DNA of 64,000 nt from Limnomonas spitsbergensis (lineage: Eukaryota > Chlorophyta > Chlorophyceae > Chlamydomonadales): positions 2,381,001 through 2,445,000 of the forward strand of contig JAYJMM010000100.1 of the NCBI GenBank assembly GCA_037349105.1. Reading direction: 5' to 3'. Below are positions 1,701-64,000 of this stretch, in pieces (within the stretch, counting starts at the first letter, position 1; every line of letters starts with the position of its first letter). The translations under genes were made by a program, and so were the position numbers. The notes under the pieces are model-generated. The model did no database searches. It had not been told where the DNA came from and saw only the letters and a program-made list of their open reading frames with translations.

Positions 1701-4700
1701 ATGGCATCTGCAGCAACGCAACCAGGGCCGCCTACGCAGGTCGAACTTCGAATCCCGCCCTCGCTCATCCAGGCCGCGAAGGACAAGCATAAATGGAAGC
1801 AGAGCGATCAGGACTGGCACCAGTGCGACGTTGTGGACTGCGGCAGGTGGTACCAGCGCTGCAGACAGGTGTGCCTTGGACAACTACTCTAGCGCCAGCA
1901 GTAGCAGTAGCACATGCAACTTTGCTGCGTGGCCCCTCCTAGGCCCAAATGGCTTGTTTACATCTAGAATGCCGGAAAGTGCATGGCAACAGCTTTGGCT
2001 GACAATGCCAAGGCTAGGGGAGGAACGCAGACAGTGGGGGAATGCTTGCCGGCACTGGCCGCCCCGACTGCGCCGCAGTGCAGCTCCATGCAGCGCCATG
2101 CGGTGATGCGCCCCATACACATCAACCTGCATGCAACACAGATCAAGGTAGCACATGCAAATCAAGGTATCGCATACAGATCTGCTTAACGCCTCTAGCC
2201 CTATCATTCGCACATGTACCCGGTTCAAATGTGCACGGCATGCACATCCAGTTTTACACATGCATTTCCAGTTTCACACATGCCCGTCCCATTTTCGAAC
2301 ATGCATGCACAGCTTGCAATTGCCTTCTACAGCTCTGGATATCCAGAGAGGGCTAGTAACATCAGTATGTCTGTTAGTTCACTTTATTTTAACTGCCCGA
2401 ACGTCCACAAAAGGGAAATATTACGAGGTTTCCCGAAGGTAGTGATCTCTAAACACGACTTGTAACCTGGGCTCCCCACATTTCATAATTCGGGAACACA
2501 GAAACTCAGTGTTACCTCCTATCTCCGACTGCCTCATCGACAGGCTACGGCATACATCGCCGAGATTTTAAACTGTGGATAAAGCACCATCAACAGAAAG
2601 AAAGAAAACTTCGTCACGCAGGGGTAACAGCCTTGAGGTTTAAGGAAGTAGTGCGGCATGGGCCGAGGCTTTGATGCTGGGCTTTAGTGCCTGGTTTCAT
2701 GGTCTGGATGCATCGCCTGGCTTCAGTGCATGGCCTTTTTGCATGGCGTCGCTGCATGGCGTTGCAGCCTGGCTTTGTTGCATGGCGTCGCTGCATGGCT
2801 TCATTGTCTGGCTTTATTGCATGGCCTTGCTGCATAGCCTTGCTGTGTGACCTTGCTGCATGGCTATGTTGCCTGGCTTTGTTGCAATTCGTCGCTGCAT
2901 GGCTTCGCTGTCTGGCTTTCATGCATGGCCTTGCTGCATAGATTTGCTGTGTGACCTTGCTGCATGGCCTCAGCGCATGGCTATGTTGCCTGGCTTTGTT
3001 GCATGGTGTCCCTGCATGGTTAGTTTACACGGCTTTGTTGCATTACCTTGCTGCATGGCTTCGCTGCATGGCCTTGTCGCATGTTATTGCTTGGCATTGC
3101 TGCATGCCTGCATGGCTTTGTTGCGTTGGTTTTTTGCATGGCTCACTTGCGTGGCTTGGTTGCACGAATTTTGGATGGCCTCGTTGCATGGCTTCTCTGA
3201 ATGCATATGATGATTGGATTTGTTGCATGGCTTTGCAGCACGACCTCGTTGCATGGCTCTATGGCATGGCATTGCTGCATGGCTTCGTTGCAAAGCTTGA
3301 TAAACGTTTTTTGCATGGCTATTTTGCATGCTTTATTTTGCAAGGCTTGTCACATGGCTTGTTGCGTGGCTTGGCTGCATGGCTTTTTGAGGTCCATCAA
3401 CGCACAGCACTTCTGCGTGACGTTGCCCCCTGGGCTTCGTGCACATGCCCATTCGGACGGGCTGCATGCCGCCAGCTTCTCCATCATGAATGTGTGATAC
3501 ATGCAGTGCTGTGCCATTGCACCGTAATTCAGAAATCGTGTTGGTAATTACGGTCCCTTACCGGTAAAAGTACCGTAAAACCACTTAAACTCCGCGCACC
3601 CCCAAAAAAATGAATTTAATTTTCGGCCGCGCACCCCAAAAAGAATTTAAAAAACGGTCGCGCAGCGACGAAATTTTAATTTAATTTAACGCCGCGCAGC
3701 ACGAAATTTAATTAAACATCGCGCATCACTGGAAATAATTAAAAAATTCGTCCGCGCAGCACTTTCAGCCAGTACAGTCAAACTCAGTTACAACTTCGTT
3801 TGATGCTAGCAGGACCCGCATACCGTAGTCGTCATCCCCCTCCTCCGCCTATTCCTGGCCTCAGGAAACGTGTGGCTATTGGGGCCCGGGGGGCTCAGTG
3901 GTACTACGTAACTTAGTAGTCCACCCTGAGGCCTGCAGTTCGAATCCTGACAATGTTCAGCAGTAATGCTACCTATGAGTACCGGTAGTGCTCATCTGTG
4001 TCATCAGTAGTGTTACCATGCAGGGCTATTTGGGCACACTTGACAGGGATGCCTGAACGGATGTCGAATCAAACAGTCGCGCGAGCACTTCCATCTTACA
4101 AATTTTGTAAAAACTGCTGTTTTTAATTCATACCGCGCACCCCCAAAATAATTGTTTGGGCACCTGACTGACGCTCCGCGCAGCGGCAATTTTTGAATTC
4201 ATATTAGCGCGCAGCCATGTCCGCGCACCCCAATAATTATTTAATTACGAGCGGAGCTAAAGTGGTTCTACGGTAGCTGAATTTGCCTTACAATTACGGT
4301 GATTGAAACTCAGCTACGTAATTCAGCCACTGTAAAGCCGGTATTGGCACAGCACTGACAACATGTGATAGGCCGTCCCGAAGGCCTTCTTATCAATGTG
4401 CGACAGGTCACCACTGAGATCCGTGCACAAGCAAAGTTGGAAGGGCCAGACGCCGCCAGCTTCTCAATCGTGGTTTACGAGCTGCGCTGGGCATGCCCGT
4501 ACTGCAGGTGGGTCAGCAGTACAACGAGGGGCCTGTCTTTTCCAGTTGTCAATGGTGGGGGAGCTGGCAGTACATTGTTGCGCTTGTCTTGTCCGTGGGT
4601 GGGTGCTTCAGCGGTACAAAAGTGGGCTTGTCCTGCCAGCGGGTGGCTGCTTCAGCGTTACATACACAGGCCAGTCTAGCCATCTGGTGGGTGAGTCACG

Positions 4701-63800: not shown

Positions 63801-64000
63801 GGCATGGGCACGGGCATGAGCGTGGGCATGGGCATGGGCATGGGCATGGGCATGGGCATGGGCATGAGCATCAACTATATCAGGAGAGATGCGTGATCCT
63901 CACCCAGAGATGGCATGCCGCCCGCTACAGAAGTGTCGGGCAAGCTCGGTGGGGCGGGTAGCTGCTTGATGAAATTGCGTGGCTCCGCTGCACCTCGAAG
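57879..64000 (-). CDS. Gene D: Gln/Pro/Ala-rich protein, 5' partial
   Basis: Exons (5' to 3'): beyond 64000-63904 (partial), 60774-59819 (or from the in-phase acceptor at 60798), 59588-59031, 58274-57879. Phases 1, 0, 0 keep the frame through all joins; at least 668 aa. The partial first exon gives NFIKQLPAPPSLPDTSVAGG. Exon 2 is Asn/Gln-rich with poly-Gln, then ARISIIPRQFDMGGMFPNS. Exon 3 is Gln-rich (QLNDAQQEQQLPQQPQPQEL). Exon 4 ends in FLPTLGEAAEAQAAPASGRQ and SSLLQMKQLGGGLAGERGSA before TAG. The protein is nearly all disordered, as in transcriptional coactivators or condensate scaffolds, but that is inference. The end is uncertain because no UGUAA signal lies within 600 nt and telomere-like intron-type sequence follows. 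Confidence 0.65.
58420..58735. repeat. Pyrimidine-rich low-complexity block
   Basis: CACTCCCCCCCCCC- and CTCATCATCCC-type sequence on the plus strand, in gene D intron 3. No credible coding frame. Confidence 0.7.
58737..59030. repeat. 43-bp minisatellite grown from the gene D exon 3 donor
   Basis: Seven units; on the gene's strand each reads GGCAGAGGTAAGAGAGAAGT, AGGGTTTAAGGTTGAGGGTTT. GCAGAG/GTAAGAGAG is exactly the functional exon 3 donor at 59031/59030, so the array carries seven extra consensus 5' splice sites. Units also contain CCCTAAA-like sequence. Confidence 0.95.
60824..62150. repeat. Hexanucleotide GGTCAT array, block 1
   Basis: GGTCAT units with scattered GGGCTT, GGGCAT and GGGCTC variants, in gene D intron 1. 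Period six keeps frames open on both strands (WSWS, VMVM, HGHG, TMTM, DHDH), creating artefactual frames up to 947 codons. Variant units form irregular higher-order patterns towards the right end. Confidence 0.97.
62155..62328 (-). pseudogene. Second copy of the gene D exon 2 start
   Basis: About 170 bp nearly identical to 60650-60822, covering the exon 2 acceptor region and its first about 40 codons (for example the stretch giving YMLTSNRPHERHPTLSATSN). It differs by very few bases (for example CTTTTTTC for CTTTGTTC). It lies between the two hexanucleotide blocks, so exon start and array were duplicated together. It could serve as an alternative exon start, but no donor follows before the array. 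Confidence 0.85.
62329..63868. repeat. Hexanucleotide GGTCAT array, block 2
   Basis: Same unit as block 1, with long segments in the same variant order (for example GGGCTCGGGCATGGTCATGG). The right end is richer in GGGCAT and AGCGTGGGCATG units, and abuts gene D exon 1 donor at 63903. Confidence 0.97.

Follow-up and report, generated by a model that had tools for sequence, protein, structure and literature searches.

Why do many exons of a green alga have, on the intron side of their splice sites, worn tandem copies of their own ends? The question is raised by a 64,000-nucleotide stretch of Limnomonas spitsbergensis DNA (C100:2381001-2445000 of an assembly of 260,226,709 bases in 124 contigs; hereafter the window, whose positions serve as coordinates throughout), for which an earlier reading, here called the original prediction, had described decaying tandem copies at both the donor and the acceptor sides of exons, some of them now minisatellites. 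That description holds in the window and in a sample of the genome. The original prediction had also set out a test for enrichment of such arrays at exon-intron boundaries; a count made here on 173 junctions reveals none over the intron interior. We propose, with a probability of about three in four, that short tandem duplication acts genome-wide and passes a selective filter, the junction copies being a by-product.

Junction copies are not enriched over intron interiors

The 173 junctions comprise 35 set by hand in the window, 58 from chaperonin genes and 80 predicted on the neighbouring DNA. A 30-mer centred on the junction is copied in the adjoining intron (score 30) at 47 of them, about a quarter: 11/35 in the window, 8/58 in the chaperonin genes and 28/80 at the predicted junctions outside the window; no copy is detectable at the other 126. 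Windows lying 75-90 bases inside the exon have a copy in 5 of 295 cases, windows in intron interiors in 554 of 1617, and none of 1103 comparisons of junction probes with unrelated introns gave a match. Relative to the interior, the junction rate gives a ratio of 0.79 (confidence interval 0.64-0.96), with 0.66 (0.41-0.93) in the window, 0.85 (0.53-1.36) in the chaperonin genes and 0.88 (0.67-1.13) at the predicted junctions. At a stricter score of 36, copies are found at 34 of the 173 junctions and the ratio is 0.74 (0.56-0.96). Over the 195 bp of intron next to the splice site, the copy rate is flat or falls slightly toward the site, and it then drops over 30-90 bases of exon. Copies that cross the junction occur at 9/52 donors and 12/53 acceptors, and the spacing of the best copy ranges from 36 to 1119 bp (median about 148; 58 junctions). 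Introns shorter than 200 bp and low-complexity predicted exons are excluded from these rates.

Because the window had been chosen by the earlier reader, the chaperonin test was made outside it. The genes were selected by a family search (72 exon matches), from which twelve loci were taken; HSP70 and HSP90 loci were also listed and contribute nothing to the junction counts. Introns were placed by continuity of the family profile together with splice motifs, profile gaps of more than 30 positions being skipped, and of the 38 resulting solutions L028 (score -12.4) was dropped as unsupported. In a first test at a score of at least 32, restricted to introns of at least 100 bases, the 28 chaperonin introns yielded copies at 10 of 56 junctions, 1 of 56 exon middles and 1 of 1142 unrelated introns, and at 86 of 520 random positions within the same introns. 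The same test on gene A, the plus-strand gene at 1701-15619 of the window, gave 9/20 junctions, 2/20 exon middles, 0/136 unrelated introns and 85/200 intron interiors. In both cases the rates at the junction and in the interior are similar, and junctions and interiors thus behave alike.

Exons on the 284 kb around the window were obtained with a predictor that combines splice motifs and codon use and whose training drew in part on the same loci. It recovers 13 or 14 of the 16 known internal chaperonin exons (thresholds 30 and 25), and returned 52 exons on the 284 kb (51 used), or 53 once the limit on exon length was lifted. This limit, 600 bases, had given false ends inside long exons; for the 173-junction count it was not applied and the window was annotated manually, and the earlier predictions, made under the limit, had given copies at 39 of 160 junctions and a ratio of 0.83 (0.66-1.04).

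The background against which the junctions are to be read is itself rich in duplications. Random non-exon 30-mers from the 284 kb have a copy within 500 bases in 964 of 2419 cases, and the arrays found by Tandem Repeats Finder (TRF) cover 35% of this DNA as compared with 12% of 58 exons. Among TRF rows with a period of at least 9, the period is divisible by three in 17 of 17 inside exons, these rows representing 8 exons with overlapping rows counted, and in 199 of 565 outside. Such periods suggest that the same duplication process reaches exons and is filtered there; an in-frame tandem duplication of 36 bp (23327-23450, minus strand; TRF period 36) lies in the coding exon 23222-23579.

These rates bear directly on the first mechanism offered in the original prediction, a duplication process aimed at splice junctions, such as slippage or repair at transcribed sites. 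The occurrence of copies at both ends of many exons, and at 47 of the 173 junctions, would agree with such a process. However, the ratio of 0.79 and a profile that is flat to falling toward the boundary speak against it, as do copies that are at least equally common across the 284 kb as a whole. As junctions are not enriched, there is no need for a mechanism directed at transcribed splice sites, and we consider it improbable.

Age, tandem structure and splice dinucleotides of the copies

Most copies have diverged from the exon end that they resemble, to about 70-95% identity, and the full span of identities, from 70% to 99%, suggests that the process is ongoing. In 12 of 27 junction families the similarity covers 0.7 of the spacing or more, as in a clean tandem; older copies often retain the exon part alone.

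The second explanation put forward earlier was selection for redundant sites: spare splice sites would be retained for redundancy or for alternative splicing. Many copies do hold GT or AG, and in donor copies (20 families) GT is matched at 0.93/0.94, whereas the 22 positions around it average about 0.85; no significance test goes with these figures, and in a smaller set the values are 0.94 for GT and 0.75 for its neighbours. In acceptor copies, however, AG is close to its neighbours, both in 20 families (0.88/0.79 against about 0.83, again with no significance test) and in the smaller set (0.65 against 0.70). Moreover, of the eight copies in the acceptor array of exon 42424-42510, six cross the junction at 42510, and these have AG in two cases and GG in four; nor are junctions enriched. 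We see no clear selection on the splice dinucleotides in the copies, although there may be a slight effect at donors. With GT and AG not clearly better kept than the positions beside them, selection for spare sites is not needed, and we hold it to be just as improbable as a mechanism aimed at junctions.

Errors of assembly or wrong gene models could in principle mimic junction copies: the assembly is built from long reads and contains long arrays, and some of the exon ends are predicted. Misassembly does not, however, produce copies that have diverged to about 70-95% identity, and the gene models fit the reading frame, the homologue and the continuity of the family profile, antisense exon predictions in the chaperonin loci being zero at four thresholds. 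This explanation is very unlikely. Least likely of all is that mobile introns or introner-like elements, the latter known from other algae, seeded the repeats, since the copies match their own exon end and unrelated introns are matched in 1 of 1142 and 0 of 1103 comparisons, so that intron sequence shared across unrelated genes was not encountered.

Paralogous genes give a further view of how the copies change. In the pairs L026/L027 and L033/L034 the exons are about 82-92% identical and the introns are mostly unalignable. At the five introns that are homologous within these pairs, most acceptor copies differ between the two genes, either in spacing or in being present at all (139, 254 and 461 in one paralogue and 108 in the other; none, and 104, 175 and 276; 164, and none), and one acceptor copy (116/106) looks common to both paralogues. 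Genes paired in this manner, with similar exons and unlike introns in the two pairs compared, hint at an old genome-scale duplication. Chaperonin, HSP70 and HSP90 genes are often paired on contigs C36-C119, C4-C123, C39-C99, C21-C124, C84-C114 and C32-C112, some of these pairings recurring (C36-C119 in two families, C4-C123 twice). At C32:466073-498637, HSP90 matches lie about 13.5-13.8 kb apart, as if part of the gene had been tandemly duplicated.

Gene models and junction copies in the window

Gene A has 11 exons that form one open frame with a stop: exons 1-6 at 1701-1868, 4407-4507, 5800-5902, 6808-6954, 7497-7739 (with a GC donor) and 8453-8538, and exons 7-11 at 9626-9758, 10469-11641, 11962-12084, 12888-12955 and 15331-15619. 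The protein search gave a single homologue of gene A, FOA52_007104 of Chlamydomonas sp. UWO 241, which covers exons 1-7 with 44% identity in 340 aligned columns; the snow-alga genome paper places this species in the same clade as L. spitsbergensis (PMC11228838). The alignment with the UWO 241 protein sets the start of exon 4 at 6808; the open-frame check and the probe test on the 35 junctions of the window were run with this start at 6835. The N-terminal half of the gene A protein is Cys-rich and the remainder is of low complexity and coiled-coil-like; three stretches of it matched no Pfam family, and a Pfam search with ten translated stretches of the window gave a single, sub-threshold match. 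The minus strand carries exons at 46887-47012, 42424-42510, 24385-24536, 23222-23579, 22632-22693 and 19955-21448 and single exon ends at 45636, 44413 and 19513, and the phases of five of these exons or ends, from 24536 down to 19513, chain when checked by hand. Three further minus-strand junctions, at 60774, 59031 and 38889, are putative and were placed from splice motifs and the copies, not from homology.

The exon numbering of gene A was rebuilt here. The original prediction came without exon coordinates, and its exon k of this gene appears to fit our exon k+1. Under this mapping, copies are detectable at 17 of the 18 exon ends where it had claimed them, some of them weak; at the remaining one, the exon 5 acceptor of its gene C (44509), no copy reaches a score of 30. 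When 40-base probes were compared with their own intron, a score of at least 36 was reached at 12 of the 35 junctions and by 1 of 35 exon-middle probes, and this single exon-middle match falls inside the same duplication; mean scores were 31.7 for junctions, 18.3 for exon middles and 16.7 for other introns. The strongest copies in the window are those of the exon 4 donor, the exon 5 and 9 acceptors and the exon 10 array of gene A, together with those for 42510, 44413 and 19513; the copies at the donors of exon 3 and 23222 and at the exon 4 acceptor are weak.

Within gene A (all on the plus strand), the weak exon 3 donor copy lies at 6002-6040 (30/39 bases, GT kept), and the exon 4 acceptor has two weak copies with AG kept, at 6486-6509 (22/24 bases, score 32) and 6675-6699 (21/25, score 30). 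The exon 4 donor is copied at 7044-7127 (80/84 bases, GT kept), a segment that takes in about 71 exon bases plus intron at a spacing of about 161, and there is a third, shorter copy at 7232-7257 (24/26, GT kept). Downstream of it, a TRF array of 107-bp units (7290-7543) runs into the real acceptor of exon 5, with acceptor copies at 7380-7437 (55/58 bases) and, for the exon part only, at 7290-7330 (37/41). The exon 5 donor copy at 7842-7863 (21/22 bases) was absent from the list in the original prediction; the donor itself, at 7739, is a GC site (CTG/GCAAGT), and the copy retains the GC. Intron 6 holds five exon 6 donor copies at 8560-9116, the best of them matching at 31/33 bases; four have GT and the fifth has GC. 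Exon 7 has an acceptor copy at 9345-9383 (33/39 bases, AG kept) and two donor copies that cross the junction, at 9826-9861 (29/36) and 9887-9938 (45/52), both with GT kept. Acceptor copies of exon 9 occur at 11664-11695 (28/32), 11747-11805 (52/59) and 11849-11908 (55/60), all with AG kept and with a TRF period of 103. From the donor end of exon 10, a 59-bp minisatellite extends over 12931-13781 (14.4 copies by TRF), and at least 12 copies of this junction are found at 13049-13866.

On the minus strand, the exon at 46887-47012 has two acceptor copies within 47154-47327, one of 49/58 bases with AG and one of 45/64 with AC, and the donor at 44413 has a copy at 44241-44311 (61/70 bases, GT kept). 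The eight-copy acceptor array of exon 42424-42510 occupies 42566-43506, with TRF periods of 103-110. The acceptor at 19513 is copied at 19758-19801 (43/44 bases, AG kept), and the putative 38889 junction has acceptor copies at 39012-39081 (57/70) and 40945-40976 (28/32), AG being kept in both. Downstream of the 23222 donor lies a 12-bp minisatellite found by TRF (22864-23197) whose units carry CAG/GTGAGG; eight copies reach a score of at least 26, the best at 19/19 and the others weak, with 5 exon bases in each short unit. Similarly, a 42-bp array (58728-58996) downstream of the putative 59031 donor has seven copies, the best at 22/22 and all with GT; the units of these two donor arrays hold merely 5-9 exon bases. 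The copy for the putative 60774 acceptor (62158-62325; 167/168 bases) lies 1511 bp away, upstream with respect to the gene, with a CATGGT array in between. This CATGGT/CATGGG array, 3 kb in length (60816-63871), is within a 1511-bp duplication that also holds the putative 60774 acceptor. Elsewhere in the window, a 10.9-kb minisatellite of 41-bp units (26844-37703; 275 copies by TRF) is located between exons of minus-strand genes, and a roughly 60-bp inverted repeat, seen by eye at 54021-54345, may mark the end of a mobile element.

Discussion

On the explanation that we favour, non-coding DNA would be hit at a high rate by short tandem duplications, with a spacing of mostly about 100-200 bp at junctions and shorter units in arrays, presumably arising by ordinary routes such as the repair of staggered nicks or breaks. 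Within exons, these duplications would persist solely if in frame. A duplication across a splice site would leave the coding sequence intact if the outermost site (the first donor or the last acceptor) were still used; the surplus copy, with its piece of exon, would then fall in the intron, add one unit length to it, decay and sometimes become a minisatellite. Use of the outer site in splicing is suggested by the reading frame, the protein homologue and the continuity of the family profile.

Several points weigh against this explanation. In the bootstrap behind the ratio, both ends of an intron enter as independent observations. Exon copies, being constrained, may remain recognisable for longer than pairs of drifting intron copies; the true ratio may therefore lie below 0.79, and the tolerance of junction duplication may be less complete than it appears. 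In 15 of the 27 junction families the similar stretch falls short of the spacing (median ratio 0.53), which could be accounted for by a constrained exon template beside intron copies that both drift, but partly tandem repair would look alike. The donor GT is matched slightly above its neighbours in both sets of copies. Of 81 windows placed at random in predicted exons, 22 have a copy no more than 500 bp away, a count that takes in repeats within exons and low-complexity predictions. Finally, the predictor favours open frames, which biases the count of periods divisible by three, makes some false ends and shares part of its training with the loci on which it was used.

The original prediction stated that no named system fits, yet the 'mirages' of amphioxus have the same structure. 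These are boundary-spanning, imperfect tandem copies with AG/GT on the 5' and 3' sides (PMC3087553; lancelet PGBD5 in PMC3902484), with units of about 10-160 bp and with regular splicing reported as undisturbed (PMC3087553). Both 5' and 3' boundaries are affected in the alga as well, which has arrays of 12, 42, 59 and 103-110 bp, and some best-copy spacings exceed the lancelet range. Mirages are also marked by length instability between haplotypes or cells; in the alga, paralogues differ in their copies, a weaker indication of the same. In contrast to the mirages, the host is a green alga and not a cephalochordate, 173 junctions have been measured, and the copies, known from the sequence of one assembly, appear to be the margin of a general process of tandem duplication. 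Intron gain through tandem genomic duplication of AGGT, as reviewed in PMC3443670, likewise involves the duplication of sequence with a splice-site motif; however, a new intron arises there inside an exon, whereas existing introns lengthen in the alga. In rice, break repair leaves insertions of 10-1000 bp, many of them tandem or partly tandem, with no tie to splice sites (Vaughn and Bennetzen 2014, as summarised in PMC7407515); the density in the alga looks far higher, in a comparison that is not like-for-like. Among openly licensed papers we found no account of such a structure in a green alga, and the examined parts of the snow-alga genome paper (PMC11228838) make no mention of junction copies. 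What is new is thus the lineage, the scale and density, and the measured near-neutrality of duplicated junctions, for a structure whose named precedent already exists. The presence of a lancelet-type structure in so distant a lineage favours a general by-product of tandem duplication over a special system.

A more tentative proposal, which we regard as possible but doubtful, is a 'mirage ratchet', in which the duplication of a junction would be near neutral, the spliceosome would hold to the outer site beside near-identical competitors, and the surplus would always go to the intron and never to the exon. Junction copies amount to a natural experiment on splice-site choice, with near-identical sites competing within 50-300 bp, and the ratio of duplication at junctions and in interiors is a simple gauge of the cost of a duplicated splice site. 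If the outer site is indeed the one used, there would, by extrapolation, be thousands of such tests in one genome; and if the ratchet is real, junction duplication would add to introns steadily and in one direction across the genome, leaving behind exon fossils of readable age.

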